Positions 7,942-39,820 of a DNA stretch of 64,000 nt are shown here, in pieces. Both the position numbers and the translations under genes were made by a program. Numbering within the stretch: position 1 is the first letter of the stretch; the number at the start of each line of letters is the position of its first letter. The notes below the pieces were generated by a model. That model did not search any database and was not told where the DNA came from. It worked only from the letters and a program-made list of their open reading frames with translations. Source of the stretch: Ferrigenium straubiae (GTDB lineage: Bacteria > Pseudomonadota > Gammaproteobacteria > Burkholderiales > Gallionellaceae); assembly GCA_019449655.1 (NCBI GenBank), contig JAHQXD010000002.1:2106-66105 (forward strand), read 5' to 3'.

Positions 7942-7984
7942 ATAAATGAACCATCAAGATACTAAAGTTGAATTATCAGCCGTA

Positions 7985-8773: not shown

Positions 8774-8854
8774 ATTACTCTCCCTCATTGTCAGAATCCC
8801 GGTTGCCAAGTCCGAACCCTCGGCGAGGGCGTAATTATCTGGGGTATCCTAGAA

Positions 8855-16135: not shown

Positions 16136-17252
16136 CTACCAACGCTCCAACGATATAAGCCTGATGCTCCCGAGAAAGGCCAACCCACAACGGGAGGCGC
16201 AACAAGTTGCCGCTAACAGAATCGGTGACCGCCATACCCCCATGCACCCTGCCATACCGAATGCCGGCAGGTGCGCTATGCAATGGGACATAATGGAACA
16301 CCGCATTAATGCCCTGCTGCTTTAACCTATCGATCACCCGCGTCCTGGTCGCCAAAGAATCCAACAGAACATAATACATATGCGCATTCTGCCGACAGTC
16401 CAAAGGTATGATGGGACGCCTCAGTTTGCACGCCTCTTCCAATGGCTGGAAAGCTTCATGGTACCCATCCCAGACCGCCAAGCGACGCTCTGTAATCGCG
16501 CCAGCATATTCCATCTGTGCCCAAAGAAATGCGGCGATGATCTCACCCGGCAGATATGACGAGCCAATATCCACCCAAGTGTATTTATCCACCTGTCCGC
16601 GGAAGAAGCGGCTTCGGTTTGTTCCTTTCTCCAGAAGAATCTCGGCGCGCTCAACATACTCGGGCGCATTCACCAACAACGCTCCACCCTCACCCGAAAT
16701 AATATTCTTCGTCTCATGGAAGCTTAGCGCCGCCAGATGGCCAATGCTACCGAGCGGCCGCCCCTTGTAGGTCGACATGATGCCTTGCGCCGCATCCTCG
16801 ATGAGGACCAGATTGTGGTAATTGGCGATGGCCATGATCGCATCCATCTCGCAAGCCACTCCCGCATAATGCACGGACACAATGGCCTTGGTTCTGGAAG
16901 TGATCGCCGCCTCAATCTTTGATTCATCGATGTTCAGCGTATCGGGGCGAATATCCACAAACACAGGAACCCCGCCGCGTAACACAAAGGCGTTCGCAGT
17001 AGAAACGAACGTGTAGGAGGGCATGATGATCTCATCACCCGGCTGAACACCGATGAGTATCGCCGCCATTTCCAGCGCGGCAGTACAAGAGTGCGTCAAC
17101 AGGGCCTGATAGCAGCCAATATTTTTTTCCAGCCAATCGCAGCACTTAGTCGTAAACTGCCCGTTGCCTGCCAGATGCAAATTGGCATGCGCCTGAGATA
17201 TATAAGGCAACTCATTGCCTGTCATGTATGGCTTATTGAAGGGGATCTTCAC
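16125..17252 (-). CDS. wecE: dTDP-4-amino-4,6-dideoxygalactose transaminase, WecE/RffA-like
   Basis: 375 residues, full length. MPSYTFVSTANAFVLRGG and LIEDAAQG are DegT-family motifs, and the PLP lysine is in SFHETKNIISGEGG, the form found in WecE. The enzyme uses glutamate to aminate C4 of dTDP-4-keto-6-deoxy-D-glucose. The start is a GTG with a weak GGTAGG upstream. RmlA and RmlB, which would make the substrate, are not in the window and would have to be elsewhere. The gene overlaps the GT-C gene by 11 bases. Confidence 0.85.
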   Translation of the reverse strand: MKIPFNKPYMTGNELPYISQAHANLHLAGNGQFTTKCCDWLEKNIGCYQALLTHSCTAALEMAAILIGVQPGDEIIMPSYTFVSTANAFVLRGGVPVFVDIRPDTLNIDESKIEAAITSRTKAIVSVHYAGVACEMDAIMAIANYHNLVLIEDAAQGIMSTYKGRPLGSIGHLAALSFHETKNIISGEGGALLVNAPEYVERAEILLEKGTNRSRFFRGQVDKYTWVDIGSSYLPGEIIAAFLWAQMEYAGAITERRLAVWDGYHEAFQPLEEACKLRRPIIPLDCRQNAHMYYVLLDSLATRTRVIDRLKQQGINAVFHYVPLHSAPAGIRYGRVHGGMAVTDSVSGNLLRLPLWVGLSREHQAYIVGALVDAI

Positions 17253-18317: not shown

Positions 18318-18715
18318 CCTTCGACCTTTGCCTGAACAGATTCACCATCCCTGAAGACAAAGAATTTGAACGCAATAAACAGGAATACCGCAACTACAAA
18401 AATCGCCACCAGCTGCACCCATTGATGTGGATACCCGAATTTATCCGCCAGAATGGCCATTAGCCCGAGATTAATCATATACCCAAGCAAGTGAACAACG
18501 ATGTACCTGGTACCAGTCGCTTGCAGACTCCCTTCATGCATAAAAACATATTTTCGGCTTCCGAAAAACCCAACCGTTGCACCGGCCGCATACAAGATGC
18601 TTATTGCCCACTTGGGAGGAACCCCGAAATATGTGACCAACAGGTAAATCAGATAGCCAAGCGTGTTTCTTATTATCCCGAGGAGTCCGTAGCTGAATAT
18701 CTGCTTGACTAGCAT
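18314..18715 (-). CDS. GtrA-family membrane protein
   Basis: 133 residues with four membrane helices, the GtrA (PF04138) pattern: FSYGLLGIIRNTLGYLIY in helix 1 and FIAFKFFVFRDG at the end. GtrA proteins are thought to move undecaprenyl-phosphate-linked sugars across the inner membrane. It overlaps the sulfotransferase gene by 7 bases and is in the same series as the GtrB-like gene at 19833. Confidence 0.85.
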   Translation of the reverse strand: MLVKQIFSYGLLGIIRNTLGYLIYLLVTYFGVPPKWAISILYAAGATVGFFGSRKYVFMHEGSLQATGTRYIVVHLLGYMINLGLMAILADKFGYPHQWVQLVAIFVVAVFLFIAFKFFVFRDGESVQAKVEG

Positions 18716-19833
18716 TTCGCCCCCATTGCGGCGAATACATCAGGGAATAAAAATAATCTTCTATTGCCCTCGACGTCATGATATCTGCCTTGCGATGCAG
18801 CCTCCCAGCGCGACAACTCAAACTGCCGATTTTTCACGGACAATGCGTAATTAGACAGGTATGCAGTGCGCACACCCTGCGTCTCCTCAACTAATCCAGA
18901 GATGTCATCCGCTCGTAAATCCGTGCTGCATGAATAACCCAGAGCATCCAGCTCCGGCTTGGTGCAGGCTTCGATGAAGCGAATTTCTTCGCCCGAAAGC
19001 AATGTGCGCCAGACCTCCTCGCTCTTGCGATCAACGCCCTTTTTGTCACCGAACGACGAGTTGCCTTTCCACTCTCTCCCCTGGTGGTCATATAGCGGCT
19101 GATGGATCAGCCCTTCTGGGAAGTCCCCGATCCCGAGCCACTCTGTAATTCCACTCAGGGTAGCATCCGGATCTTGCACTAGATCCTCATAGCGAACTAC
19201 ATGTACCAGCGGGTGGTTCCTGAAGGACAGCCAATATGCGGCACTTTTGCGCCATAGCCTGATCAACATCAAAAGCGGGTATCGGTCACCCACTTGTTGG
19301 TGATAACACCCATGGCTAGCAGATGAGATCACAGCACGGGGGTCACGAACGATAATCACACATCGCCCGCCGGAGTCGACTATCGCCGGTATGTATTCCT
19401 CGCAGAGCACTTCCTTGGCGCCTATGTATTTGGCATCATCGCGATGACAGCGCTCGGACAAAAGACTATGGAGCCGGGTTTGAATATCGAAGAAAGACCC
19501 AGAACCCATGGTTATTCCATCGGTGTACCCAAGGGCACTGCCGCCTTTACCAGTTGTCGCGCTCTTCACCAGGTATGCTGCTTCTTCGACATTGAAAGTC
19601 CGCTCTTTCAGCCATCGCGAGAATTGAAGGCGCTCTTCGTCAGAGCTGTCCTGGCCATCGCCTAGCGGCAGAAATTTTTCTATGCCGCACTCTTCAAGGA
19701 ACAAACGCCTTACATCCACATAAAGCTGATGATAAGGCTGGTAGGCCACAAACATCTCCGGATGGTTTGTTAACAGTGTCTGAATCAGGCTAGTACCTGA
19801 TCGCAGCATGCCGGTAACGAAAAGGAATCCCAT
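18709..19833 (-). CDS. Sulfotransferase family protein
   Basis: 374 residues. The P-loop-like 5'-phosphosulfate site is GMLRSGTSLIQTLL near the N-terminus, and VRDPRAVISSASHG supplies the Arg and Ser of the 3'-phosphate site of PAPS. It would transfer sulfate from PAPS to a hydroxyl or amine of the glycan. Its start shares one base with the stop of the GtrB-like gene (TAATG). An APS kinase gene in the same cluster can make the donor. The acceptor is unknown. Confidence 0.8.
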   Translation of the reverse strand: MGFLFVTGMLRSGTSLIQTLLTNHPEMFVAYQPYHQLYVDVRRLFLEECGIEKFLPLGDGQDSSDEERLQFSRWLKERTFNVEEAAYLVKSATTGKGGSALGYTDGITMGSGSFFDIQTRLHSLLSERCHRDDAKYIGAKEVLCEEYIPAIVDSGGRCVIIVRDPRAVISSASHGCYHQQVGDRYPLLMLIRLWRKSAAYWLSFRNHPLVHVVRYEDLVQDPDATLSGITEWLGIGDFPEGLIHQPLYDHQGREWKGNSSFGDKKGVDRKSEEVWRTLLSGEEIRFIEACTKPELDALGYSCSTDLRADDISGLVEETQGVRTAYLSNYALSVKNRQFELSRWEAASQGRYHDVEGNRRLFLFPDVFAAMGAKC

Positions 19834-23556: not shown

Positions 23557-24228
23557 TCAATCATTTCGATTCATCGGAACGGTCCCGATGACCGTCGCAG
23601 GGTTTCCGCCCACGATGCTGTAGGCAGGAACGTCTTTTGTAACCACTGAACCTGCAGCCACTATTGATGCCCGCCCCACTGTTACTCCTTTGAGGATGAT
23701 GGCGCGGGCCCCTACCCAGACATCATCTTCGATGATGACCGGAGATCTTTTTACAACCGACCAGTCTTTCGGGCGTCCCTCCATATAATCGGGCAAATCC
23801 TTACGGCGCACGGCCGGGTCAATCGCATGGCCATCGTGGTCCAGAATCAGACAATCAAAGGATATCCAGACGTTATCGCCGACACACATCCGGTCCGCCA
23901 ACACAAACATTGTTCCGCCATTGATGGCTGTGTTTTTTCCTATTTCCAGACTGGCTTTGCTGCGCTCGAAGTTTACGGTGCCATCGACTGATGACTGCAT
24001 CCCCACCCGTATTGCGCATTCTGCCGGATCCACATAATAACCAAACGATACCACCGCTCTGAACATTTCTGTTTTGGCGATCGAGAATGACCCGAGGGAC
24101 GCCACACCGCGGAGCCTTGCTCGGGTCCTGAACGAATCTATGATCTTTGCGACCAAATTGAAAATGGGATTTTTCATCAAATCAAGTCGGGAGGATTTAC
24201 CAGCCACGCTAACCAACGCCCCCGACAT
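23557..24228 (-). CDS. Hexapeptide-repeat acyltransferase
   Basis: 223 residues with left-handed beta-helix repeats: the C-terminal half shows [35 protein letters not shown] and ends with the usual [13 protein letters not shown] loop with HDGHAIDP holds histidines typical of CoA-dependent O-acetyltransferases such as WcaF/NodL relatives. It probably O-acetylates a sugar. The start is uncertain: ATG 24228 or ATG 24177, neither with a good ribosome site. Confidence 0.8.
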
Positions 24229-27377: not shown

Positions 27378-27399
27378 CCCTGATCATCAGGGATATCCC
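27378..27399. repeat. Two abutting palindromes at the sulfotransferase stop
   Basis: CCCTGAT-C-ATCAGGG (27378-27392) overlaps GGGATATCCC (27390-27399), at the 3' end of the sulfotransferase gene and just before the 180-base gap to the next start. They could be a protein-binding site or a weak transcript end; there is no T-run. The gap 27206-27386 shows nothing else I can name. Confidence 0.4.
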
Positions 27400-28334
27400 C
27401 AAGCAGCATTCAGTTCATTGAGTTTCTTCAGTTCATTTGCTTCCACTTCACCCAGGAAATCGTAGTTTTTTACACCCCCCGTTTTATCTACCATCGGCCT
27501 GACAGACATGATGCCAAGTTTGGTTAGATTCGTGGTTTGTGTAGATAGGAACTGTGCCAACTCGTCCATGATAGAGTCGGGGTTCTGCCTTAACTCCTCG
27601 TAAGAGAGGATGTGCAGCCTATTACCCAGTCCACTGCTCTTCGCTTGTATCGCAAACTCCGCATCCCGCCTCCAAAGATAACATGCTCGGGTTGCTTCAT
27701 TCATCTTTACCCATTCGCCAACCATTGAATCCTCAACCAAATGGGGAACCTTGCTCCCATTGACTATCTTGAAAGGCCAATAGTTATTTTTCAGCCCTTC
27801 GTCGCTAAGCCACCGTTTCTTGATGATGGATTTCACTACGTCTCGCCCATCTCTCATTATGATGATGAACTGGGACTCAGGGAGCGTGGCATCGAAAAAC
27901 GGGATTGCATCTATCACACTCGGCATCTTGAAGGCGAGCCGCAGTTTTCTATCGGCAATGTAGTTAATTGCATCATCCCGATTGCGGATATTTTGCCACC
28001 GTGAAAGCAACTCCGGCCAGTAAATTGAGTTGAGAACCAGACTGTCATCTCCTGGACGGAGGTTTGCCTTTCTTCCATGTGCAGATTCGAGGAGAAGATC
28101 CTCATGCAAGTGCAATTGCAACAGAACCGATGCAACTTCTGGGGACAGGGCTTTCATTGAAAGCAAGGCGGACAACCCCCACACCAGCGGCGGTTCAAAA
28201 TGGTACTCGACACCCTCGAGTGTGCTAACTAGTTTTCCCAGCAGACTAGTGCCGGATCTAGGCGCACCCGTTATGACAATCGTATTTTTGGTGTTCTTTT
28301 TTTGAATTTCAGCTAAATCTATTTTATTGTCCAC
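27387..28334 (-). CDS. Sulfotransferase family protein (second)
   Basis: 315 residues. 5'-phosphosulfate site VITGAPRSGTSLLGKL, and 3'-phosphate site IMRDGRDVVKSIIKKRW. It differs from the one at 18709 in length and core sequence, so the two are not recent duplicates. It follows the ptmA-like gene by 20 bases at the downstream end of the legionaminic-type gene set, suggesting sulfation of that sugar or of a neighbour in the glycan. PAPS can be supplied by cysC at the head of the operon. Confidence 0.8.
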   Translation of the reverse strand: MDNKIDLAEIQKKNTKNTIVITGAPRSGTSLLGKLVSTLEGVEYHFEPPLVWGLSALLSMKALSPEVASVLLQLHLHEDLLLESAHGRKANLRPGDDSLVLNSIYWPELLSRWQNIRNRDDAINYIADRKLRLAFKMPSVIDAIPFFDATLPESQFIIIMRDGRDVVKSIIKKRWLSDEGLKNNYWPFKIVNGSKVPHLVEDSMVGEWVKMNEATRACYLWRRDAEFAIQAKSSGLGNRLHILSYEELRQNPDSIMDELAQFLSTQTTNLTKLGIMSVRPMVDKTGGVKNYDFLGEVEANELKKLNELNAAWGYP

Positions 28335-28354: not shown

Positions 28355-29182
28355 TCACCAAGCACTAAGACCGCCATCTATAAGCAAATTTTGTCCCGTA
28401 ATATAGCTCGATGCGTCCGATGCCAAATAAACCAATGCGCCAACCATTTCGTTCGCTTGTGCCATCCTGCCCATAGGAATTCTCGCCGAATACCTCATTT
28501 GAAATTCTTCGTTTTGGCCACTCTCGACACCGCCTGGGCAAATGCTATTTACCCTGATTCCCTTATTCGCCCAGTAAGTGGCAAGATATCGCGTGAGGCC
28601 GATTACCGCAGCTTTTGAAGCTGAATATACGGCGGGTGTATTAATGGCGCGGCCATAATAGAACGAACCTTCATAAATCCGCTGATCCGGCGCCATTGCA
28701 CCGTAAATAGAGGCAGTTTGAACGATGCTCCCCCCCTTACCCTGTTTTACCATTTGTTTGCCTACGGCCTGCGCGACAAGAAACATGCCGTCTATATTGA
28801 CAGACATGGCATTGCGCCACTCCTCCAAGCTATATTCCTCAAATGGCGCAAAGTATGCTTCCATATTGGAAGATTTCCCCCCTGCATTGTTGTGGAGTAT
28901 GTTGATTTCGCCGAATGCATTAACTACTTGCTCGACCATTCTGGCAACCGCTTCCGGGGAGGTAACATCACAGGCAACACCGACTGCCTTTATCCCATGA
29001 TTTTTTATCAATTCATCAGCAAACGCTCGGCATTTTGATTCATCAAGATCTACAACTGCCACATTGGCGCCAAATTCGGCCAAGCCCCTACAAAATGGCT
29101 TGCCCAGAATCCCCACCCCTCCGGTAACAATGGCGGTTTTCCCTTTGAGGCTGAACCATTCCGGGTTAAATGTCTCACTCAT
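28355..29182 (-). CDS. ptmA: Short-chain dehydrogenase, PtmA-like
   Basis: 275 residues of the classical SDR type: TGGVGILGKPF for NAD(P) binding, NNAGG, and catalytic YSASK with the preceding Ser in QTASIYG. PtmA of Campylobacter flagellin glycosylation is the best match by position: it lies next to a CMP-sugar synthetase gene in legionaminic-acid loci. Its reaction there is not firmly known. It overlaps the cytidylyltransferase gene by 8 bases. Confidence 0.75.
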   Translation of the reverse strand: MSETFNPEWFSLKGKTAIVTGGVGILGKPFCRGLAEFGANVAVVDLDESKCRAFADELIKNHGIKAVGVACDVTSPEAVARMVEQVVNAFGEINILHNNAGGKSSNMEAYFAPFEEYSLEEWRNAMSVNIDGMFLVAQAVGKQMVKQGKGGSIVQTASIYGAMAPDQRIYEGSFYYGRAINTPAVYSASKAAVIGLTRYLATYWANKGIRVNSICPGGVESGQNEEFQMRYSARIPMGRMAQANEMVGALVYLASDASSYITGQNLLIDGGLSAW

Positions 29183-29876
29183 GCGCCCCTCCTCTCATTA
29201 AAAATTCAACGAACTTGAAATCAAGCTCACTATCGATATCGATAGAACGTTCCTCAGGCATCACATAAAGCAAAGTATCTGGTTGAAAAATGGCGCGCTC
29301 CACAAACAAAGCATCATGGCGCCAAACATAGATGGAGGCATTCATGTCATAGCACTTGGGCGCGTCCTGACGGCGCACGATAGCTTTTTCAAGCGGCTTG
29401 GATAGTCGTACCACTCCATCTTCGCCAACTTCGACAAGATTGAAATAAGGGGAACGCCTCGCTGGCGCTCCCGTTATTACATTAGAAACCTCGCGTTCTT
29501 CCAGAAGCCTGACTGCTCCAGCGATATCTTCCGGTAAACGCAAGGGGGACGTAGCATCCAGATCAACCAATACATTGAATTTACTGCTGGCTCGATTTTC
29601 CGCTTCGAGGACACAATGCTGAATAGCGGGCAGTTTTGCCGCCGTGTCACTTGCCATTTCGTCTGGTCGCTTGATCAGCATATCTGCACCATACCGGCCA
29701 GCAACTTCCAGAATTTCATCTGAATCACTGCTGACAGCTATAGCCTCAAAAAGCTTCGATGCCTTTGCCTGTTCAATACTGTGTGCAATAAGGGGCTTCC
29801 CGAGCAACTCTCGAGTGTTCTTTCCCTTTACCCCTTTAGATCCGCCTCTCGCGCAAATTGTGCATAATCTAGCCAT
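29175..29876 (-). CDS. legF: CMP-nonulosonate (legionaminate/neuraminate) cytidylyltransferase
   Basis: 233 residues. N-terminal TICARGGSKGVKGKNTREL is the signature of CMP-sialic-acid-type synthetases, with DLDATSPLR as the metal-binding core. It activates a nine-carbon acid with CTP. The companion genes legB and legC indicate legionaminic acid rather than neuraminic acid. It overlaps both neighbours by 8 bases, so it is made together with the Gfo/Idh oxidoreductase and PtmA-like protein. Confidence 0.88.
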   Translation of the reverse strand: MARLCTICARGGSKGVKGKNTRELLGKPLIAHSIEQAKASKLFEAIAVSSDSDEILEVAGRYGADMLIKRPDEMASDTAAKLPAIQHCVLEAENRASSKFNVLVDLDATSPLRLPEDIAGAVRLLEEREVSNVITGAPARRSPYFNLVEVGEDGVVRLSKPLEKAIVRRQDAPKCYDMNASIYVWRHDALFVERAIFQPDTLLYVMPEERSIDIDSELDFKFVEFLMRGGAHE

Positions 29877-30786
29877 GAGCTGTTACCCATATTTCTTTCT
29901 TCGCTGCAATTTCTGCAGAGTCAATCATCTTCATGACTGCGAGCCCGTCTTTATAGTTACATAGCTTGGCAAAATCACCGGCGAGCATAGCCTTATGTTC
30001 ATCAAGATATGTTACATCACGTTCAACATTCACTAACTCGGTGTTGCCGTCAATGTCAATCGTCCCTTTTACAAAATCGATCTTGAGCGAATGCTGGTCA
30101 GTGTGCACAAGCACCTCCCTGCGTGCGACCCTGTCAAGATAATTCACATGAATGCTCACAAGCGGACAGGCATTCATCTCCAACAGCAGGGTATAGAAAT
30201 CATCACTATCAATTTCAAGATGACTGAAATGTCCGCCAATCGCAGTCAGCCGCACCCAGTCGCCAAACAACCATCTCATGTAATCCAGCTCATGGCTTAG
30301 ATCTCGCAGCACCCCGCCCCCCTCGGAACGTTTGGCTGAATAACTACATCGATAATCTGTCGATGGCCGCCATTGAGGCAAATATTGCCCTACATATGCA
30401 AAGGCGGATAACGGGCGCTGATCAACAAGAAAATCGCGCAATCTGTTAATCAGTGGGTGGAATCTCAGGTTATAGGCGACAGCAAGGCAAGCAAAACGAT
30501 TGGGCGGTACCTCATAAACCTGGTCAAAAAGCGGTTTCTCAACTAACACCCTGCCTTCGAAATCATATTGTGCGAGGGTAGACAATACGCTATGGTGCTC
30601 ATGGGTTTTGTTTGCCAAAACCACGTATTCCGGCTTCCACTCTTCCAAGGCTGTGCCAATATCACAAAAAACAACTGGATGCTCAATTTCTCGGCTGCTC
30701 ACTACAGCAACCTCGCACCCTAGCTCCTTAAGCAATCGAGCATGCCGCTGCCCAATAGACCCGAAACCAACCACCAGAACCCTCAT
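29869..30786 (-). CDS. Gfo/Idh/MocA-family oxidoreductase
   Basis: 305 residues. Rossmann start LVVGFGSIGQRHARLL, then VEKPLFDQ, the EKP motif of the family with the catalytic-site Lys, and GGVLRDLSHELDYMRW in the second domain. Members oxidise or reduce sugars with NAD(P). They are often found between the ptmE and ptmB/legF genes of legionaminic-type loci, but the reaction there is not established. Coupled by ATGA to the nucleotidyltransferase gene. Confidence 0.8.
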   Translation of the reverse strand: MRVLVVGFGSIGQRHARLLKELGCEVAVVSSREIEHPVVFCDIGTALEEWKPEYVVLANKTHEHHSVLSTLAQYDFEGRVLVEKPLFDQVYEVPPNRFACLAVAYNLRFHPLINRLRDFLVDQRPLSAFAYVGQYLPQWRPSTDYRCSYSAKRSEGGGVLRDLSHELDYMRWLFGDWVRLTAIGGHFSHLEIDSDDFYTLLLEMNACPLVSIHVNYLDRVARREVLVHTDQHSLKIDFVKGTIDIDGNTELVNVERDVTYLDEHKAMLAGDFAKLCNYKDGLAVMKMIDSAEIAAKKEIWVTAHG

Positions 30787-31832
30787 TGCGCATCCCCAGA
30801 GTGCTCCAAATTGGCTCTCTCAAAGTCCTCGACGTGACCAATATCCAGCCAGTATTCACGCACTGGGAAAGCAATGGTTTTGCTTCTATCGGCAATCAAA
30901 CGGTCAAACAGGGTAGGCATGTCGAAAAAATCGCTCTTGGGGATCATGTCCAGTATTTCTGGCTCGAGCATATAAATCCCTGCGTTGACGAAAAACGTTT
31001 GAACCGGCTTTTCCTCGATGGCCGTGATGCTGTGATGATCCATTTTGACCACTCCGTAGGGTACCTGAAAATCATACTCCCTGACACACATGGTCGCCTT
31101 TGAACGGTGCGCCCCGTGAAAATCAACAAGCTGCGTAAAATTAACCTTAGTCAACAGATCGCCGTTCATGACCAGAATGGGCGAATTCGGCCTTTCCGGC
31201 AGTAAGCTGAGTGCTCCGGCAGTCCCTAGTTTCTGAGATTCGCGCAGATACCGGATATCTACCCCCCAACGCGAGCCATCGCCAAAATATTCGGTAATGG
31301 CCTCCGACATATAATTAACGGAGAGATAGAAGCGCCGAAAACCGTATTCGATAAAATTGAGTAAAATGGTTTCGAGGATGGGTCTCCCACCTATTTTCAG
31401 CATGGGCTTAGGGCAATTCTCAGTCAGTGGTCTCAGCCTGACACCAAGGCCTCCCGCCATCAACACCACCAGATTATCCCGCTCTTTGGGTGCAAGCAAC
31501 TCGTCGTGCGTCTCTAGTCTTACGACCCGACCGGCCTTATCGACTACAGGCATGTGACGCAAATTTCTGATCTCCATGCGAGTCAGAATCGCTTCGCGCG
31601 CGTCATCTTCCCTGCAAACGCTGGGATTCGGATTCATTATCTTATCGACGGTCTCATTCAGCGCCACGCCACGCAAAATTCCGCGCCTGACATCGCCATC
31701 AGTCACCGTACCTAGCAAGTGATTGTCACCGTCCACCACCAACGCGATTTGCATGGCACTCGAATCAATAAGTTGTATCGTGTCGCGTATGGACGAATCT
31801 GGCGAGACAAGTATTTTTTTAATATCTTTCAT
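30783..31832 (-). CDS. ptmE: CBS-domain nucleotidyltransferase, PtmE-like
   Basis: 349 residues. Two CBS repeats (about residues 8-115, with GTVTDGDVRRGIL) precede a sugar nucleotidyltransferase domain with LMAGGLGVRLRPLTE and CPKPMLKIGGRP. In Campylobacter PtmE makes GDP-glucosamine from glucosamine-1-phosphate, the first activated sugar of the GDP route to legionaminic acid. Finding it here supports legionaminic over neuraminic acid. The CBS pair may sense a nucleotide. No PtmF-type glucosamine synthase is in the window. Confidence 0.85.
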   Translation of the reverse strand: MKDIKKILVSPDSSIRDTIQLIDSSAMQIALVVDGDNHLLGTVTDGDVRRGILRGVALNETVDKIMNPNPSVCREDDAREAILTRMEIRNLRHMPVVDKAGRVVRLETHDELLAPKERDNLVVLMAGGLGVRLRPLTENCPKPMLKIGGRPILETILLNFIEYGFRRFYLSVNYMSEAITEYFGDGSRWGVDIRYLRESQKLGTAGALSLLPERPNSPILVMNGDLLTKVNFTQLVDFHGAHRSKATMCVREYDFQVPYGVVKMDHHSITAIEEKPVQTFFVNAGIYMLEPEILDMIPKSDFFDMPTLFDRLIADRSKTIAFPVREYWLDIGHVEDFERANLEHSGDAQ

Positions 31833-31870: not shown

Positions 31871-32539
31871 CTATTGTTGTTTCTCTCCAACAATGAGCCA
31901 TTCCTTGACTTCATGTTTGCGACCTTCCATCGTACGCGTCAATAATTCAGTCTCTTTGATTTCAAATCCCTTGATCAGCTCGGGTATTTCGGACAATTCC
32001 GTAAACCTATTAAATCCCTTATTCAGCAATGGCCCCTCGGCCACGATCCAAGCATTGTGTCCCACAGGCTGGCCTGTACCATCACCCCAACAGCCTTTAG
32101 CAAAAGCTCGGGAAAACAGCTTTCCACCCGGTTTGCATACCCGCGCCAACTCGGCGTAAATCTTTACTGAATCGTTAAAAGAGTTGCAGCAAATAGCCTC
32201 GTTATCAATTACTGCATCAAAGACACCATTTTCGAAGTCGAGGAGGGTGATATCACCGACTTTCAATTCCCCCTTCCACCCTGGGCATTCCGAATCAAGG
32301 CGAGCTTTAGCTTGCGCTATGGCTGTCGCGGAGCCGTCCACCCCATAAACCGTGAATCTTTCTCTGGCGATATACCATAGATTCGCACCCGGGCCACAAC
32401 CCACCTCCAGGATCTGGACCGCAGTGCGATCTGGTACCCGATAAAAATTGCGGGCCACGAATCGGATCAAATCTTCGCCGGGATATTTGCCCCACGCTTG
32501 CGTTTTGAATACCTGCTCCCAAACCGGATCAAATGACAT
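31871..32539 (-). CDS. Class I SAM methyltransferase within the legionaminic-type locus
   Basis: 222 residues. Motif I ILEVGCGPGANLW, acidic VYGVDGSATAI, then CKPGGKLFSRAF. It separates neuB/legI from ptmE in the same transcript, with gaps of 38 and 51 bases. Methylation of the nonulosonic acid or its N-substituent is a reasonable guess from position only. Confidence 0.78.
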   Translation of the reverse strand: MSFDPVWEQVFKTQAWGKYPGEDLIRFVARNFYRVPDRTAVQILEVGCGPGANLWYIARERFTVYGVDGSATAIAQAKARLDSECPGWKGELKVGDITLLDFENGVFDAVIDNEAICCNSFNDSVKIYAELARVCKPGGKLFSRAFAKGCWGDGTGQPVGHNAWIVAEGPLLNKGFNRFTELSEIPELIKGFEIKETELLTRTMEGRKHEVKEWLIVGEKQQ

Positions 32540-32590: not shown

Positions 32591-33643
32591 TTAATGCCCA
32601 CCGAATATATCATCCCATTCGACAGGCTGATCCGCATTAACTGCAGTATGAAGTATACGATTGCAAACCAATTCAAAATGTTCTGCGAATATGCCCGAAT
32701 TTGCGCGTTTAAATATCAGATCGTTTTCTGACAATCGCCTTCCCGCGTGCAGATCGCATGCTGCAACTAGGCGCTTACGCACAATTTGCTTGGTCTTCTC
32801 CTCGCTCGGATTTGGACGCTTTATGCCATCGCCCATTGCGGATTCGATATTCCGGATAGCGCGAACCATGGCTGACAATTCGCCTGGATCCATTGAAGCC
32901 TTATGGTCTGGACCTTCCATTTCCTTATCCAGCGTAAAATGCTTTTCAAGTACTTCGGCCCCCAAAGCAACGGCTGCTACCGGCACTTCGAGCCCAATGG
33001 TATGGTCGGAATATCCGATTCTTATCTTGAATGCTTCTTTGAGCGTCAGCATCGCCCTGAGATTCACTTCATTCATCGGGCATGGATAATTGGTCGTACA
33101 GTGCAGAACTACCAGCTCTTTCTGGTTTATCTCCCTGATGAGGCGCATGGCAGTCTCAACCTCACCAAGTGTCGACATGCCGGTTGAAAGGATGATTGGC
33201 TTTTGCTTGAATGCGGCACGCCGAAGAAACGGGTAATTGTTCACCTCTCCAGAACCTATCTTGAGCCAAGGTATATCAAGTTCATCCGCCAGAAAGTCCA
33301 AACTGTCTTCCTCGTCAGGCGTGGAAAGAAACAGTATCCCCGTGCGTCTGCAATATGTGTGCAATTCCCGGAACTCATCATAGCTAAGTTCGAGCTTCTT
33401 AATCATCTCGAATTGCGAATTGCTTACTGCCAGATTTTCTTTTTGGTAATCTGCCATGTCTGCATGGCGAGTGACTATCTTTTCTGTCTTGAAAGTCTGG
33501 AACTTTACGGCATCCGCTCCCGCCTTGCGGGCTGCATCAATCAATTGATAGGCTAGTCCGATGTCACCATTATGGTTGACGCCAGCTTCCGCAATAATGA
33601 ATGTCTTTCCGTTCACTTGAAATTCCTGATTAATGCATTCCAT
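32591..33643 (-). CDS. legI: N-acetylneuraminate/legionaminate synthase
   Basis: 350 residues, full length. NeuB barrel with IIAEAGVNHNGDIGLA and KFQTFKTEKIV, WLKIGSGEVNNYPFL and LSTGMSTLGEVE, and a C-terminal SAF domain (RKRLVAACDLHAGR...) that covers the active site. It condenses phosphoenolpyruvate with a six-carbon amino sugar. The substrate is probably 2,4-diacetamido-2,4,6-trideoxymannose given legB, legC and a NeuC-like epimerase. The start overlaps the end of the epimerase gene by 31 bases. Confidence 0.92.
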   Translation of the reverse strand: MECINQEFQVNGKTFIIAEAGVNHNGDIGLAYQLIDAARKAGADAVKFQTFKTEKIVTRHADMADYQKENLAVSNSQFEMIKKLELSYDEFRELHTYCRRTGILFLSTPDEEDSLDFLADELDIPWLKIGSGEVNNYPFLRRAAFKQKPIILSTGMSTLGEVETAMRLIREINQKELVVLHCTTNYPCPMNEVNLRAMLTLKEAFKIRIGYSDHTIGLEVPVAAVALGAEVLEKHFTLDKEMEGPDHKASMDPGELSAMVRAIRNIESAMGDGIKRPNPSEEKTKQIVRKRLVAACDLHAGRRLSENDLIFKRANSGIFAEHFELVCNRILHTAVNADQPVEWDDIFGGH

Positions 33644-34836
33644 TCACTCTTGTTCACGTCAAGGTTGAATTTTTTTGTGAGTAACTCATGTCTGGTGCGC
33701 GTAGTCATTGCGTTCAGCAAGGCACTTACGATCCGCTCCGAATTACGGCCGTCCTTGAATGGATCATAAGGGTTGATACAACTGCGACTAAATTGCTGGA
33801 AGGCCGGGCTCAAGACACGCTCCAAAGCTTCTTGGATCGCTAGCGGATCATAATTCACGTGAAGAACAGACTCTGCCGCCATTCGATTTTTCTGTCGATT
33901 GCCCACATTGACTGTAGGCACCCCAAAGGATGCCGCTTCAACCAATCCGCTTGAGGAATTTCCCAACACCGCGGAACTATTTCTTAGGACAGCCAGATAG
34001 TTTCTGCTTCCAAAATTATCCACGAACAGCGCATTCGTCCGATCATCTACAAACCTCTTGATGCATTCCACCACCTCATCTGCACCTTTCTCGGCCCCTG
34101 GGGATGTAAGAACAACCTGGTACTCCGGAAAATATCCCAGCGCCTGCAGCAATGAATCGACCTGGGCAGACACTGAAAACTCCGAATCCAGCGAGGCTGG
34201 GTGATATGTGACCAGAATGAACTTCTGCTTCAGGGACAATCCGAAGCGTTCCTTGATCTCCTCTGGTGTGGCCAGATCCTGGCGATGGATCGAATCCAGG
34301 CCGCATTCGCCGGAGACCGTGATACGCCAATCTTCCTCTCCCATTCTGCTGATGTTCTCCGCATAGTGCTCGTTCGCGGCAAAGTGCAGGTGCGCCAGTT
34401 TGGTGTGCGCATGCCGTATGCAGTCATCAATCACCCCTTCTGTGACCTCACCGCCACTGATATGAGCGATAGGAATCCCATAAAGCATGGCTGGTAGCGA
34501 AGCGCCGAAAAGTTCCCAGCGGTCTCCCAATATGACCAAAGCATCATAAGATTGGGTGGCGAACCACTGTCCGAGGCTGGCTTGCGCCAACGAAAGAGAT
34601 TTAGCCTGCGCCTGTGCGGAACAGTCTTCAAGCAGGAACTCCACGGGAATCATTCTTATACGTGCGTCTTCCCCCCAATCCGCCTCGATCTCATGCCGTG
34701 TCATTCCCTTCGATTGCAGGTGATGTGCTCCAGCTACAAGGATGTCTACGTTAAATACCTCGGCGGATTGCGAGATGAAATTTCGCAACAATCCATAATC
34801 CGAACGAGCACTGGTATAAATAGCTATTTTTTTCAT
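33613..34836 (-). CDS. legG: Hydrolysing nucleotide-sugar 2-epimerase, NeuC/LegG
   Basis: 407 residues, with IAIYTSARSDYGLLRNFI, ILGDRWELFGA, and HISGGEVTEGVIDDCIRHAHTKLAHLHF, the features of NeuC-type UDP-GlcNAc 2-epimerases, plus GNSSSGLVEAASFG in the C-terminal donor site. In the legionaminic pathway LegG releases the 2-epimerised trideoxy sugar from its nucleotide. It is coupled to the PLP-protein gene by ATGA and overlaps legI. Confidence 0.9.
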   Translation of the reverse strand: MKKIAIYTSARSDYGLLRNFISQSAEVFNVDILVAGAHHLQSKGMTRHEIEADWGEDARIRMIPVEFLLEDCSAQAQAKSLSLAQASLGQWFATQSYDALVILGDRWELFGASLPAMLYGIPIAHISGGEVTEGVIDDCIRHAHTKLAHLHFAANEHYAENISRMGEEDWRITVSGECGLDSIHRQDLATPEEIKERFGLSLKQKFILVTYHPASLDSEFSVSAQVDSLLQALGYFPEYQVVLTSPGAEKGADEVVECIKRFVDDRTNALFVDNFGSRNYLAVLRNSSAVLGNSSSGLVEAASFGVPTVNVGNRQKNRMAAESVLHVNYDPLAIQEALERVLSPAFQQFSRSCINPYDPFKDGRNSERIVSALLNAMTTRTRHELLTKKFNLDVNKSEWNALIRNFK

Positions 34837-35855
34837 AGCGCGGCAATCAATTCATCAGCGGTTCTCGACATATCCCTAGCGCTATACCTTGCATCGCAGG
34901 GGATGCTGAGCAGTTTGTCCGAGAGTGCGTGGGGTTGGGAGAGGAATGATGTATCCCAATGGATAGGGCAATAGATACGTTTTGTCCCAAGTGTGCTGTG
35001 CACTGCGTCACGCGATTTTTTGTCGCTGAACTTGCATACGAAATATTGAGAAACTCCATGCCCGTAAACAGGCAACTCGCATGCATGACCAAGACGCGCT
35101 GCCAGCACAGCCGTATTTTCAGCCACAGCCACACGTTGACTTGAGATGTCAATTGCTGACATCACTCCGTTGCTGGCATAGCTCATACCATATCGTCCGG
35201 CTGGTGCATTGTCCAGTATCTCCTCTGCCTGACGCAGCATGATAAAATTCTCGTCATCAGCAAAATCTTGCCTTGCCGAATATCCACGTGAAAGCATCGC
35301 TGCCGCGCGCAATGACCAGAAACTCTGGCGTGCGGGTTCACTCGGTGCTGGCACGGAATGCTTATTGCTCCCGCAAAAGGCCCCATCCGGAAATGGTCCT
35401 GACTTGCGCAAGCTTGCCATGGAAAAATCCGATTCTTGTATCACTTCAGCCAACCCTTCGGCATTGAATAACAAGTGAGTGGCATCCGACACTAGTGTGA
35501 CGTTCTTCTCGCGTAACTTCTTCAGCAATCCAATATCCGGAATACCAAAGAAATGGATCACCAGTACTACATCATCTGGCTGGGTATCAGCTATCCAGTC
35601 GTGTACCCCACGCAGACTGTCATCCACATCGTAATACATGACCGGCTTCCCGACCTGCCTGACAGATGACCATACTGAATGGCATAAATAGTTAGGCAAC
35701 CAGATCCGTCCGATCTCCAAGCCGGAGAAAAGGGAGAACAGTGTATCTCTGCCAGTTGCAAAATATGAGAGTTTGCTGAAACTCATCGTCAACTCTTTTT
35801 CCAAGCTATTCGAGATTGGCGCAGAAGTTTGAAAATAATACTCCCCGCCGATCAT
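34833..35855 (-). CDS. Atypical PLP-dependent aminotransferase-fold protein
   Basis: 340 residues. Not a standard sugar aminotransferase. Segments YFATGRDTLFSLF, WLPNYLCHSVW, VSDATHLLFN and SLRKSGPFPDGAF match in order the substrate start, LPEYIC, EDNAH and RK-lysine regions of the DegT-like protein at 8855. In the third the PLP Asp is kept. It sits between a FemAB-like gene and legG, coupled by ATGA on both sides, so it is probably needed for the same modified sugar. Its reaction is unknown. Confidence 0.65.
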   Translation of the reverse strand: MIGGEYYFQTSAPISNSLEKELTMSFSKLSYFATGRDTLFSLFSGLEIGRIWLPNYLCHSVWSSVRQVGKPVMYYDVDDSLRGVHDWIADTQPDDVVLVIHFFGIPDIGLLKKLREKNVTLVSDATHLLFNAEGLAEVIQESDFSMASLRKSGPFPDGAFCGSNKHSVPAPSEPARQSFWSLRAAAMLSRGYSARQDFADDENFIMLRQAEEILDNAPAGRYGMSYASNGVMSAIDISSQRVAVAENTAVLAARLGHACELPVYGHGVSQYFVCKFSDKKSRDAVHSTLGTKRIYCPIHWDTSFLSQPHALSDKLLSIPCDARYSARDMSRTADELIAAL

Positions 35856-36874
35856 GCCTCACCCCGCGCATCGCTTATCAGAAAGAAGTTCGGGTATTTC
35901 AGGGTCAGGCGCGCGCGCTCAGCCTGGTAACGTATGTCATCGCAGACCCAGCGTGAGAGATGGAAAGGCCTGCTCTCTGTCGCAAATTTTTTCTTAAAGC
36001 GACTCAATCCATCACTTTCATCGGCAGCATGCCCTCCACCCAAATGTAAATTCCGATACCCGGCATTCCCATATCGCAATGTTGCCTCCGCCATCATCAA
36101 TTCAACCGGCTGCAGTTTCATAAAATCACGATGCGAAGCACTCAGATGGTAGTGAGCCCAATCCGCGCCATCCAGCAGGAAGAAGGCAGCTGCGATCAGC
36201 TTACCACTTGACGGATCATGCACAGCTGCCAATTCGCAGTTGTCGCCAAAATGAAGCGCGTGCTTCTGAAAAAACTCTTCCGAAAAAAGATAGTAGTTAT
36301 TGGTCTTCTTTCCATCCATCAGCCCATGATAAATACTATAAAATTCTCTAATTAAACTTTCTTTGCACGTTTTCAAGGGGTGAAAGTGCGTCATCAAATC
36401 ATGGCGGCGCGCATAGTTGATCGACCATCGCAACTTTTGCGGCGAGCTAGCGCTAAACTTGTCTAAATCCCCGCCTTGGGTCAAGGTGCGAACATAGGTT
36501 GTGCGGTTAAACTCTGACTGTCCACGCGGCAACCACTCTTGGTTTCCGAGGAAAGGAGAATGCCTTATAAAGGCGCAAACCACATTTTCTTCTTGAAGAA
36601 ATTTGCGCAGCTTCTCCAGCAACGCCATTGAAACCGTGCTACCGGTTGCACTCAATATCCCACCATAGCCATATGCAGTATATGCCTCATATACCCTATC
36701 TCCGATCTTGCGCAACAGCAGCGGCAGATACCATTCTGAAACCCCATCGTTGATGCATACGCTGACTGTTTTTGCACCATCATGTTCAGCGAAGAGCGAC
36801 TGGTATGCTTGTGTGAAATATATCGGTAGTGAGCCGCTGGGGATGTGATCCACCCAGTCGCATGGCTGCCTCAT
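35852..36874 (-). CDS. FemAB/GNAT-like acyltransferase in the legH position
   Basis: 340 residues with the double-GNAT pattern: KFSASSPQKLRWSINYARRH in the middle, IAAAFFLLDGADWAHYHLSA, and YGNAGYRNLHLGGGHAADE followed by LSRFKKKFA at the end. It lies directly after legC, where other loci carry a hexapeptide acetyltransferase (LegH) that acetylates the C4 amine. A role as the LegH substitute is an inference from position; transfer of another acyl or aminoacyl group is equally possible. Confidence 0.7.
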   Translation of the reverse strand: MRQPCDWVDHIPSGSLPIYFTQAYQSLFAEHDGAKTVSVCINDGVSEWYLPLLLRKIGDRVYEAYTAYGYGGILSATGSTVSMALLEKLRKFLQEENVVCAFIRHSPFLGNQEWLPRGQSEFNRTTYVRTLTQGGDLDKFSASSPQKLRWSINYARRHDLMTHFHPLKTCKESLIREFYSIYHGLMDGKKTNNYYLFSEEFFQKHALHFGDNCELAAVHDPSSGKLIAAAFFLLDGADWAHYHLSASHRDFMKLQPVELMMAEATLRYGNAGYRNLHLGGGHAADESDGLSRFKKKFATESRPFHLSRWVCDDIRYQAERARLTLKYPNFFLISDARGEA

Positions 36875-36924: not shown

Positions 36925-38115
36925 TTAACCTTTCAGCTTGCCCAAGCTTGCACTACTGGGGATATTGATCAGACGCCGCTCAATATCTTTAGCCACCTCC
37001 AGATCGCCCATCGCCGGGCATGCCTTATATATATCCAATTCATGCATCAGTGTCCACGCTGGGCGCGTCATTATCCCCGAGCTGTTGGTGGCCTCAAGCA
37101 GCACATCACGCTGATTTACAAACTGCCGGTCCAATAGCAAAACATTCAACCAATAATTGCTTTGAGCAAACTCTGGCTCAGTATAAAAATGAACGTTATC
37201 AACGCCTATAAAAGCTTTCTTGTAGCTTTCTGCCAGCGCTCGCTTTTCCTTGATAAAGATTGGCAGCTGCTCAAGCTGCGCGCAGCCCAGCGCAGCATTG
37301 ATATTTGGCAAGCGATAATTGAAGCCGATCATGTCGTGAGCAAACGACCATTTGTGGGGAACCTTTGCGGTCGTGGTTATATGCTTCGCAACCTTGGCGA
37401 TCTCTGGATCGTTTGTAAGAATAGCGCCGCCGCCGCCGGTAGTGATGACTTTATTCCCGTTGAAGCTTAGCGCCGAAACTCTGCCCAAGTTTCCGGTGTG
37501 CCGCCCCTTGTAATACGACCCTAGCGATTCGGCGGCATCTTCAACCATCTCAAGCCGATAGTGGCGACATACCTCAACTAGCGGATCAAGGTCAACGGGG
37601 TGCCCGAAAGTATGCATCGGTAAAACGGCTTTGATACGGCGGCCCGTTTTCTTATTGAAGCAGCCATCCGCCCGAAATTCAGAAATCTCTTTGAGATAAT
37701 CAAAGAGCTTTTTTGGATCAAGTCCTAAAGTAGCTTCTTCACTGTCCACAAAATGAGGAATAGCCCCGCAGTAGCTGACAGCATTGGCCGTCGCAATGAA
37801 GGTGAGGGTTGGCATCAGCACCTCATCATCCTGCTTTACTCCGACCAACTTGAGGCAAACATGCAATGCCGCTGTTCCATTGACTGCTGCTACGGCATAT
37901 TTGACACCGGTATAGGCCGCAAGGTCTGCCTCGAAGCGGTCAACAAATTTGCCCACCGATGAAACAAAGGTAGAGTCAAGACACTCTTTCAAATAGAGCC
38001 ACTCGTTGCCAGAGAAATTGGGTTCGTGCAGTACCACAGGCCCCTCCCCGACGACAGTGCGTATTGCCGAAACAACTTGTTCAGTCAGCATAATCGGGGG
38101 GCTCTTGGCATTCAT
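36925..38115 (-). CDS. legC: LegC-type nucleotide-sugar aminotransferase
   Basis: 396 residues of the DegT family. MPTLTFIATANAVSYCG, MVEDAAESLGSYYKG and the PLP lysine in SFNGNKVITTGGGGAI identify it. In the pathway LegC aminates C4 of the 4-keto-6-deoxy-HexNAc made by LegB. It is coupled to legB by ATGA, as in other legionaminic-acid loci, and is somewhat longer at the N-terminus than WecE, a trait of LegC proteins. Confidence 0.88.
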   Translation of the reverse strand: MNAKSPPIMLTEQVVSAIRTVVGEGPVVLHEPNFSGNEWLYLKECLDSTFVSSVGKFVDRFEADLAAYTGVKYAVAAVNGTAALHVCLKLVGVKQDDEVLMPTLTFIATANAVSYCGAIPHFVDSEEATLGLDPKKLFDYLKEISEFRADGCFNKKTGRRIKAVLPMHTFGHPVDLDPLVEVCRHYRLEMVEDAAESLGSYYKGRHTGNLGRVSALSFNGNKVITTGGGGAILTNDPEIAKVAKHITTTAKVPHKWSFAHDMIGFNYRLPNINAALGCAQLEQLPIFIKEKRALAESYKKAFIGVDNVHFYTEPEFAQSNYWLNVLLLDRQFVNQRDVLLEATNSSGIMTRPAWTLMHELDIYKACPAMGDLEVAKDIERRLINIPSSASLGKLKG

Positions 38116-39116
38116 AGGTTATAGATATCTGCTTTGTAGCCAGCCAGATTGCTCGGTCGCGTAAACCATTCTGCGGTTTCTGCCAAGCCACGCTTGAATC
38201 CTTCGCGTCCGCCATAGTTTGGCTGCCAACCAAAGAGCTGCTTGGCTTTTGCATTTGCGGCCCACAAACGCTCAACCTCGGAGTCCTCGGGACGTAAACG
38301 CGCTTCATCCGTGATGATCTCAATCTTGGTATTCATCGCTTCAGCGATAAGCTGTGCCGTATCACCGACTGAAATCTCAAAATTGCTGCCGAAATTGACC
38401 ACCTCACCCAGCCCATGGCCAGAATTCAGTACGGCGATGAATCCAGCTACCGTATCCTGCACGAAATTGAAATCCCGGGTCGGCGATACCGCTCCGAGCT
38501 TGATCTGGCGCTTGCCATTCGCTATTTGAGTAATGATGGTCGGGATCACTGCCCGTGCCGACTGGCGCGGACCATAGGTATTGAAGGGGCGTGCAATAAC
38601 CACAGGCAGACCGAAGGACGCATAGAAGGAAAAGGCCAGCTGATCAGCCGCAATTTTTGTGGCCGAGTACGGCGATTGGCCCTGCAATGGGTGCTCTTCG
38701 GTGATCGGCACAAAACGCGCTGTGCCATATACCTCGCTGGTCGAGGTATGAATAACCCTCTTAACACCCAGCTCACGCGCCGCTTGCAACACGTTCAGTG
38801 TGCCTTTGACGTTGGTATCCACATAGGTATCCGGCGAATGGTATGAATAAGGGATAGCGATCAGTGCGGCCAAATGCAATACCGCATCACAACCTTTCAT
38901 CGCCTCCTTTACGCCATGTGGATCGCGAATATCACCTGCGAATACCTCGAACTGACCTCTTACATCTGGTGCGCACTGATCCAGCCATCCCCATGAGCCA
39001 AAGGAGTTATAAAGTACCAATGCGCGGACTTTGTACCCTTGGCGCACCAGAGACTCTGTAAGATGGGATCCGATAAAACCATCGGCCCCTGTTATAAGTA
39101 TTTTATTTAATTCCAT
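38112..39116 (-). CDS. legB: LegB-type nucleotide-sugar 4,6-dehydratase
   Basis: 334 residues, extended SDR. ILITGADGFIGSHLTE, HLAALIAIPYSYHSP, TSTSEVYGTA and the catalytic YSATK are characteristic of LegB. It converts the GDP- or UDP-activated GlcNAc into the 4-keto-6-deoxy form. PtmE in the same operon favours GDP. This is the first dedicated gene of the pathway and is 80 bases downstream of cysC. Confidence 0.88.
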   Translation of the reverse strand: MELNKILITGADGFIGSHLTESLVRQGYKVRALVLYNSFGSWGWLDQCAPDVRGQFEVFAGDIRDPHGVKEAMKGCDAVLHLAALIAIPYSYHSPDTYVDTNVKGTLNVLQAARELGVKRVIHTSTSEVYGTARFVPITEEHPLQGQSPYSATKIAADQLAFSFYASFGLPVVIARPFNTYGPRQSARAVIPTIITQIANGKRQIKLGAVSPTRDFNFVQDTVAGFIAVLNSGHGLGEVVNFGSNFEISVGDTAQLIAEAMNTKIEIITDEARLRPEDSEVERLWAANAKAKQLFGWQPNYGGREGFKRGLAETAEWFTRPSNLAGYKADIYNL

Positions 39117-39196: not shown

Positions 39197-39820
39197 TCAA
39201 ACTATTTTTATAATTCTCCGGGCCTGCATTTCACTTAGAACGTAGCCCACGCAAGTGTCCAAATCTATTGAGCCAGTATTCACAGTTAATTCTGCTTTTT
39301 TTGGCTCCTCATACGGAGACGAGATACCCGTGAAATTTTTAATCTGTCCGGCACGGGCTTTTTTGTAGAGGCCTTTTACATCGCGCGATTCGCACATCTC
39401 GATGGGGCTGTCACAATATATCTCGATGAAATCTCCATGTTCGACCATGCCGCGAACACGCTCCCGATCTTCACGAAAAGGTGAAATAAAGGCAGTCAAT
39501 ATGATGACCCCTGCCTCCATAAATAATTTAGCAATTTCTCCCACCCGGCGGATGTTCTCAACCCTGTCTTCATTTGTAAAACCCAAGTCTCCACACAGCC
39601 CATGTCTTACGTTATCCCCATCCAGAACAAACGTACGACATCCGTGTTGATGTAATTTTTCTTCCACTGCGTGCGCTAGTGTAGATTTGCCAGCGCCGGA
39701 TAATCCAGTAAACCAAAGAATTGCACCACGGTGACCATTTTGTGCTTCGCGGCGTGATCTGGTGACGGTAGCGTGATGCCAATTCACATTAGTCGAAATA
39801 CTTGCAAATTCTTTGCTCAT
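39197..39820 (-). CDS. cysC: Adenylylsulfate (APS) kinase
   Basis: 207 residues. Walker [10 protein letters not shown] (residues 39-47), [16 protein letters not shown] and [12 protein letters not shown] are the APS-kinase signatures. It phosphorylates APS to PAPS, the sulfate donor. APS-forming genes are absent here, so it serves donor supply, not assimilation as a set. Two sulfotransferase genes lie downstream in the same direction. It is the first intact gene of the cluster and follows a broken cysQ by 16 bases. Confidence 0.93.

Follow-up and report, generated by a model that had tools for sequence, protein, structure and literature searches.

A FemX-like protein and a DegT-fold protein as a proposed aminoacyl-sugar module in place of LegH in a legionaminic acid operon of Ferrigenium straubiae

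Genes of the legionaminic acid operon

A 64,000-nucleotide stretch of the Ferrigenium straubiae genome (assembly GCA_019449655.1, contig JAHQXD010000002.1, positions 2,106 to 66,105; hereafter the window) carries an operon for legionaminic acid, a surface sugar resembling sialic acid, in which a FemAB-type gene and a gene for a pyridoxal phosphate (PLP)-fold protein occupy the usual place of the acetyltransferase gene legH. The window is a section of contig C5 of this 2.66 Mb genome. On the minus strand the operon runs legB, legC, FemAB, PLP, legG, legI and methyltransferase (MT), followed by ptmE-, ptmF-, legF- and ptmA-type genes; ptmE, ptmF and ptmA are the names we take to apply to 30783..31832, 29869..30786 and 28355..29182.

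38112..39116, minus: legB, 4,6-dehydratase (TIGR04180, 531 bits, cut-off 475)
36925..38115, minus: legC, aminotransferase making the 4-amine (TIGR04181, 543.1 bits, cut-off 420)
35852..36874, minus: FemAB/FemX-like double-GNAT protein, 340 amino acids (PF13480 over cut-off; predicted model)
34833..35855, minus: diverged DegT-fold PLP protein with an S-x-R-K lysine, 340 amino acids (predicted model)
33613..34836, minus: legG (neuC type), hydrolysing 2-epimerase (TIGR03568, 348.9 bits, cut-off 235.9)
32591..33643, minus: legI (neuB type), nonulosonic acid synthase (TIGR03569, 464.4 bits, cut-off 399.65)
31871..32539, minus: S-adenosylmethionine-dependent MT (family found in leg loci with FemAB; 53% identity to the copy in locus L076)
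30783..31832, minus: ptmE-like CBS-nucleotidyltransferase (PF00483 and PF00571)
29869..30786, minus: ptmF-like Gfo/Idh/MocA oxidoreductase (PF01408/PF22725)
29175..29876, minus: legF-like CMP-sugar synthetase (PF02348; PseF model 136.7 bits, below the cut-off of 205.7)
28355..29182, minus: ptmA-like short-chain dehydrogenase (PF13561)

LegB, LegC, LegG and LegI all scored above their NCBIfam cut-offs, and LegF was recognized by PF02348 only. The LegB, LegC, LegG, LegI, LegF, PtmA, PtmE and PtmF types are shared with the canonical Campylobacter pathway. That pathway also has LegH and PtmH, whereas in the window LegH appears to be replaced and the MT might or might not be related to PtmH. The FemAB and PLP genes sit between legC and legG, and an ATGA overlap joins the FemAB stop to the PLP start and the PLP stop to the legG start. 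An earlier note on this DNA had described a FemAB-type double-GNAT gene in the LegH place after legC, coupled to legG and to a PLP-fold gene with an RK lysine. The reading frames at 35852-36874 and 34833-35855, both overlaps and the models presented below agree with that description. The MT, a further member of the module, had been overlooked.

Predicted folds of the FemAB and PLP proteins

The predicted model of the window FemAB protein is a FemX-like double GNAT of the FemABX type. A structure search with this model returned aminoacyl-tRNA-dependent transferases as the best matches, with FemX first, and the Fem-type aminoacyl-tRNA enzymes scored about 8-9 Z units higher than named GNAT acetyltransferases. 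K294 is invariant in the 21 aligned members, 18 of which matched PF02388 at E ≤ 0.1, and a profile alignment pairs it with the lysine of the FemX F-K motif (residue 305 by our own count). A catalytic role of FemX Lys305 has been described, and Ala-tRNA is the FemX donor (PMC12945691). The acceptors of the known enzymes are not nucleotide amino sugars: Ala-tRNA-dependent FemX of Weissella viridescens acts on UDP-MurNAc-pentapeptide (the peptide lysine), and the aminoacyl-tRNA-dependent synthases Sbb17/Sba18 act on streptothrisamine. These enzymes share about 15-17% identity with the window FemAB.

An alternative is that the FemAB protein is an acyl-CoA-dependent N-acyltransferase for acetyl or longer groups, a non-orthologous LegH whose product would be an ordinary acylated legionaminic acid. 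PF13480, which the window FemAB matches above cut-off, is named as a GNAT acetyltransferase domain, and the window protein has diverged from the clade of the Escherichia coli O161 FemAB discussed below. Nevertheless, the preference of the structure matches for Fem-type enzymes and the D-alanyl product of the O161 locus, with its FemAB relative, argue the other way, and the PLP and MT genes would be left with no evident substrate. This alternative is considered quite unlikely. A plain acetyltransferase as LegH substitute was set aside in view of the fold, the profile and the O161 product.

Searches of Pfam and NCBIfam with the window PLP protein gave no match at E ≤ 0.01. The PF01041 gathering score was not reached, and one of 14 aligned relatives matched that family at E ≤ 0.1. 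Structure prediction for 34833-35855, a check proposed in the earlier note, gave a DegT-type sugar-aminotransferase fold with the PLP lysine of the DegT/DnrJ/EryC1 family. The lysine of the S-x-R-K motif is invariant among the relatives and aligns with LegC Lys222; Asp124 is kept in 12 of 13, and Cys58 and Trp300 are invariant in the family. Fold, PLP lysine and Asp124 are held in common with the DegT/DnrJ/EryC1 sugar aminotransferases (GDP-perosamine synthase, ArnB, PseC, LegC). The PLP protein differs from them in its low identity (10-18%), in S-x-R-K, Cys58 and Trp300, and in having no apparent keto-sugar substrate.

LegH absence, recurrence and cap genes

Two sets of legionaminic acid (leg) loci were compared, with NeuD (LegH), PLP, MT and GNAT matches counted in a six-frame pass. 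The first comprised 17 non-redundant loci with FemAB: the window, L076, L081, L120-L126, L131, L134 and L141-L145. For the second, 30 legC-centred regions were drawn from two LegC searches (73 and 15 matches; 24 and 9 over cut-off), namely 21 of the 24 (not the window, G589 or G605), 8 of the 9 (all but the window) and a single region below cut-off. Two of the 30 had FemAB and four without LegI and LegG were set aside (L064, L072, L080, L089), so that 24 were kept. Among those set aside, NeuD scored 283 bits in L080 and 49 in L089, with no match in L064 and L072.

NeuD-profile matches of at least 150 bits were found in none of the 17 FemAB loci (best 46 bits) and in 19 of the 24 others (157-297 bits; Fisher p 3e-7), a contrast that combines two sampling routes. 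Within the LegC-driven sample alone, LegH was present in 0/3 FemAB loci and 19/24 others (p 0.019). The five other loci lacking a strong match were L074 (95 bits), L084 (73 bits) and L065, L071 and L079 (none). In L065 a formyltransferase-like open reading frame was seen by eye after legC. The best NeuD-profile match in the window scored 29 bits, at 23557-24228, and no canonical LegH was recognized in the operon. This hexapeptide gene was rejected as LegH: TIGR03570 gave 50.9 bits against a cut-off of 160.8, and its best NCBIfam match was of WbbJ type (73 bits, cut-off 243). The idea of the earlier note that the pair stands in for LegH, which would have suffered had the pair been absent from other leg loci, is strengthened by this count, with FemAB in 17 loci and PLP in 14 of them.

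A NeuD-family gene does occur on contig C2 of the same genome (G000:C2:115687-116271; L116:8670-9344), where it passes TIGR03570 with 183.3 bits over 160.8, and could in principle act in trans. It might supply the LegH function while FemAB, PLP and MT act on another amino sugar of the same polysaccharide, and further sugar genes are present in the window, among them a second LegC-like DegT gene (16125-17252, 150 bits). However, the C2 gene lies away from legI and legG, in an 18 kb stretch lacking both. The window FemAB gene belongs to an overlapping chain between legC and legG, and none of the fetched stretches of the 17 FemAB loci contains a LegH match. This alternative is thought highly unlikely. 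Neighbors of the C2 gene, named by eye, are short-chain dehydrogenase-like and methyltransferase-like. On balance, we judge that the FemAB-PLP pair probably takes the place of LegH in legionaminic acid synthesis, as an aminoacyl-sugar module.

The module recurs beyond chance, with FemAB in 17 leg loci and PLP in 14 of those. Its sources range from Vibrio to Lachnospiraceae and include Photobacterium indicum, Aeromonas popoffii, Vibrio owensii, Vibrio profundi, Providencia vermicola and metagenome-assembled genomes (MAGs) of Colwellia, Cyclobacteriaceae, Butyrivibrio and Lachnospiraceae. L127, an 8.6 kb contig of a Cytophagales MAG, was left out of the 17 as a near-duplicate of the A. popoffii locus L121. 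Since its module proteins are nearly identical to those of L121, it is probably a contaminant introduced by binning. L081 (in genome G149) has two in-frame stops in legC, seen in the family search, and its methyltransferase is in two pieces, so that this locus may be decaying; formyltransferase-like and PIG-L-like genes were also seen there by eye.

The FemAB subfamily is rare. A single-sequence search of the order matched one of 200 genomes at E ≤ 1e-3, the genome studied here. Of 398 genomes from the phylum, 11 matched the profile at E 1e-5, five of them above 80 bits. In the family of G801, FemAB was found in 6 of 116 genomes at 1e-20. A scan of genome contigs gave 16 FemAB loci, with legI and legG present in 10 and absent from six. 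Two other genomes drawn from the genus had no LegC match at E ≤ 1e-100. In the class, 15 of 274 genomes, among them the present one, had PLP relatives at E ≤ 1e-3, most of them weak matches. Among plasmids, the O161 FemAB matched four records, the window PLP protein one (a Priestia plasmid) and the O161 PLP protein none.

Two gene families alternate beside the pair. The MT family is present in nine of the 17 FemAB loci (window, L076, L081, L126, L131, L141-L144) and a small GNAT in five (L121, L122, L123, L134, L145); neither occurs in any of the 24 other leg loci. The two were never found in one locus, the probability of no overlap by chance being about 0.009 by hand calculation; 14 loci have one or the other, and L120, L124 and L125 have neither. 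MT and GNAT types are intermingled in the FemAB tree, where L131 (MT) and L134 (GNAT), for instance, are sisters, which indicates exchange of the cap gene. The MT proteins of the window and L076 share 53% identity.

Reference loci and the proposed module

A reference locus with a solved product was found in E. coli. A blastn search with the Providencia FemAB-to-PLP stretch matched 391 of 5,426 E. coli genomes, nearly all of the matches listed being short neuB matches; at least 80% of the query was covered in seven genomes, and the same seven match the E. coli stretch at ≥99%. We read two of these seven: galF and gnd flank the locus, and its wzx is annotated as O161 family. Its order is dehydratase, LegC, FemAB, NeuB, NeuC, hypothetical protein, nucleotidyltransferase and cytidylyltransferase. 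The hypothetical protein is a member of the PLP family (388 bits). Counted from its first ATG, its gene (L146:14103-15098; L147:12103-13098) has an open frame of 327 codons, compared with 263 annotated residues, and homology spans the longer frame; translation probably starts upstream of the annotated start. In the annotation of the two O161 regions FemAB is the sole acyltransferase-like gene, and neither region has an MT, small-GNAT or NeuD match.

The O161 polysaccharide is listed as Leg5NAc7NR, with R = D-alanyl, in Table 2 of PMC10609480 (citing Li et al. 2010). FemAB and PLP genes in a locus without LegH, together with this published D-alanyl group on N7, support the aminoacyl reading. 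The earlier note had left the choice between a different N-acyl and an aminoacyl group, and the tabulated O161 structure favors the latter. The O161 and window loci have in common the LegC-FemAB-LegI-LegG-PLP set, the nucleotidyltransferase, the cytidylyltransferase and the lack of LegH. Unlike the window, O161 has no methyltransferase and its FemAB and PLP genes are apart; identity is 27% for FemAB and 17% for PLP.

The aminoacyl group might not be alanine but, for example, glycine (N-methylated to sarcosyl) or glutamate, with the role of the PLP protein tied to that residue. The low FemAB identity to O161 leaves room for this, amino acid specificity is not readable from the data used here, and another bacterium is known to have a legionaminic acid with an N-methyl-glutamyl group (accessible part of PMC5207245). 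Nevertheless, O161, the one FemAB-PLP leg locus tied to a solved structure, has alanine, and the Aliivibrio wodanis sugar is tentatively alanyl, by product only (accessible part of PMC7371886). A residue other than alanine is a real but rather doubtful possibility.

Three loci with known structures bear on the PLP protein: its gene occurs with the D-alanyl loci O161 and O123/O186-type, and was not found in the E. coli O121 locus, searched from galF to gnd. The O123/O186-type locus resembles the window in having an amino-sugar DegT gene, an acyltransferase and an RK-PLP gene followed by a cap enzyme. It differs in having WbqC (PF08889) rather than FemAB, in its sugar, Qui4N, and in its cap, a GNAT with MaoC; the O123 sugar is Qui4N with N-[(S)-3-hydroxybutyryl]-D-alanyl. 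We take the E. coli O121 O antigen to be that of S. dysenteriae 7, an N-acetylglycyl structure. The relatives in the two D-alanyl loci and the lack of one in O121 led us to propose that the PLP protein converts L-alanyl to D-alanyl while it is joined to the sugar. In L093, L094, L096 and L148, a DegT gene is followed by a WbqC-family gene and then by an RK-PLP gene; the WbqC assignment comes from PF08889 in L148, from E. coli matches in L094 and from inspection by eye in L093 and L096. This order suggests that WbqC is another sugar N-aminoacyltransferase.

The FemAB protein might aminoacylate while the PLP protein is no epimerase, but a free amino acid racemase or donor supplier, a further sugar aminotransferase, or a partner with a structural role. 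Its fold is that of nucleotide-sugar aminotransferases, and its absence from three of the 17 FemAB loci means that it is not essential to aminoacylation. On the other side, its presence follows D-alanyl (O161, O123/O186-type) and its absence follows glycyl (O121). E. coli would have no need of another racemase for free alanine. FemX takes Ala-tRNA (PMC12945691), and the O161 annotation has no further dehydratase or keto-sugar step beyond that of LegC. A non-epimerase role is regarded as unlikely.

The cap assignment was compared with known sugars. The Leg5Ac7AcAla clusters of Vibrio vulnificus CMCP6 and A. wodanis, as described in the accessible part of PMC7371886, resemble the window in carrying alanyl at N7, and in that of A. 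wodanis, compared by description, PtmE and NeuA come after a second aminotransferase. Both have an N-acetyl cap where N-methyl is predicted for the window. The A. wodanis species is m/z 522, tentatively Leg5Ac7AcAla. The same source gives an unassigned quinoxaline of m/z 530, which matches no proposed cap, for Aliivibrio sp. R8-63, whose Leg cluster is like that of A. wodanis up to the second aminotransferase. For a Clostridium, Leg with an N-methylated aminoacyl group on N5 (PMC5207245) and a PtmH-type N-methyltransferase next to the Leg genes (PMC13317340) are reported in the accessible parts of these sources. These precedents, the MT in the window and the alternation of cap families lead to the prediction of N-methyl-D-alanyl. 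Shewanella oneidensis flagellin (274 Da nonulosonic acid, 236-264 Da groups; accessible part of PMC3765264) was rejected as a parallel, since sfmABCDE is a different gene set.

In the proposed pathway, LegB and LegC would form a nucleotide-linked 4-amino sugar. The FemX-like protein would transfer an amino acid, most likely L-alanine from Ala-tRNA, to the 4-amine that becomes N7 of the nonulosonic acid. The DegT-fold PLP protein would form an aldimine with the free alpha-amine of the aminoacyl group and epimerize it from L to D. The window MT would N-methylate that amine, while at other loci it would be acetylated by the small GNAT or left free. LegG, LegI and LegF would then complete the sugar as CMP-Leg5Ac7(N-methyl-D-alanyl).

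Several observations weigh against this pathway. The window FemAB scored 17.4 bits with PF02388, below the gathering cut-off of 24, and a single-sequence search of the PDB did not return FemX. The window's other FemAB also carries F-K, so the motif is no proof of a tRNA donor. Identity to module members is 22-27% for FemAB and 17-25% for PLP, and the FemAB tree places the window protein outside the main clade, with non-leg outgroups, on a long branch with support 0.16. In view of this divergence and placement, the acceptor and the amino acid could differ in the window. L081, L124 and L126 lack the PLP gene, and the remainder of these three genomes gave no match at E ≤ 1e-10. The epimerase idea is based on two D-alanyl loci and one glycyl locus, the O121 structure being taken from the presumed identity with S. 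dysenteriae 7. The known N-methylated aminoacyl group is on N5, not N7 (accessible part of PMC5207245), small-GNAT and MT loci were not linked by sequence to any solved Leg structure, and the MT could O-methylate another position.

Aminoacylation is well supported by predicted folds, synteny and recurrence, by the operon having no LegH, and by the match of its gene set to the O161 product. We infer that a tRNA donates alanine, that the PLP protein inverts it, that the MT N-methylates it, and that these steps occur in the order given. Alanine, its D-configuration and N-methylation are predictions for this organism, because its FemAB and PLP proteins are divergent. As a whole, an aminoacyl-sugar module replacing LegH and giving CMP-Leg5Ac7(N-methyl-D-alanyl) is the explanation we somewhat favor. 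The earlier note had suggested a new nonulosonic acid variant. This holds for the predicted methyl-capped form but not for D-alanyl- and N-acetyl-alanyl-legionaminic acid, which are already known (Table 2 of PMC10609480; accessible part of PMC7371886).

A second trio of related genes lies at 6913-9928 on the minus strand: a FemAB gene (6913-7941; PF02388, 73 bits), a methyltransferase gene (7985-8809) and an RK-PLP gene (8855-9928; PF01041, 45 bits; leg PLP profile, 46 bits). The leg-FemAB profile did not match this FemAB at E 1e-3. The trio may decorate another amino sugar likewise. Near the operon are two sulfotransferase-like genes (27387-28334 and 18709-19833) and a cysC-like gene (39197-39820), named by eye; the polysaccharide might therefore carry sulfate.

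Structures are known for bacterial surface sugars that bear D-alanyl or other D-aminoacyl groups (PMC10609480, Table 2). In the accessible literature, outside which many subscription papers fall, no enzyme is assigned to the D-aminoacyl inversion, and neither FemAB, WbqC nor the PLP protein is assigned to D-aminoacylation. The assignments of FemAB as aminoacyltransferase, PLP as epimerase and MT as alternative cap are proposals new to that literature. More generally, the RK-PLP protein could be a PLP enzyme of a new kind, a former sugar aminotransferase that now epimerizes a nucleotide-sugar-joined L-aminoacyl group with two bases, the PLP lysine and Cys58. With FemAB or WbqC aminoacyltransferases and exchangeable N-acetyl or N-methyl caps, it would form a general bacterial D-amino-acid cassette for surface sugars, of which the window would hold the methylated form on legionaminic acid. 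This wider idea is tentative, and slightly more apt to fail than to hold. The module provides a concrete three-step proposal with genes, namely tRNA-dependent aminoacylation, PLP epimerization and N-capping. It is directly testable, because the genes, a reference locus with a solved structure (O161) and the O123/O186-type and O121 comparison loci are at hand. The proposed gene-content rule is that FemAB would indicate aminoacyl at N7, PLP the D form, a small GNAT N-acetyl and MT N-methyl.

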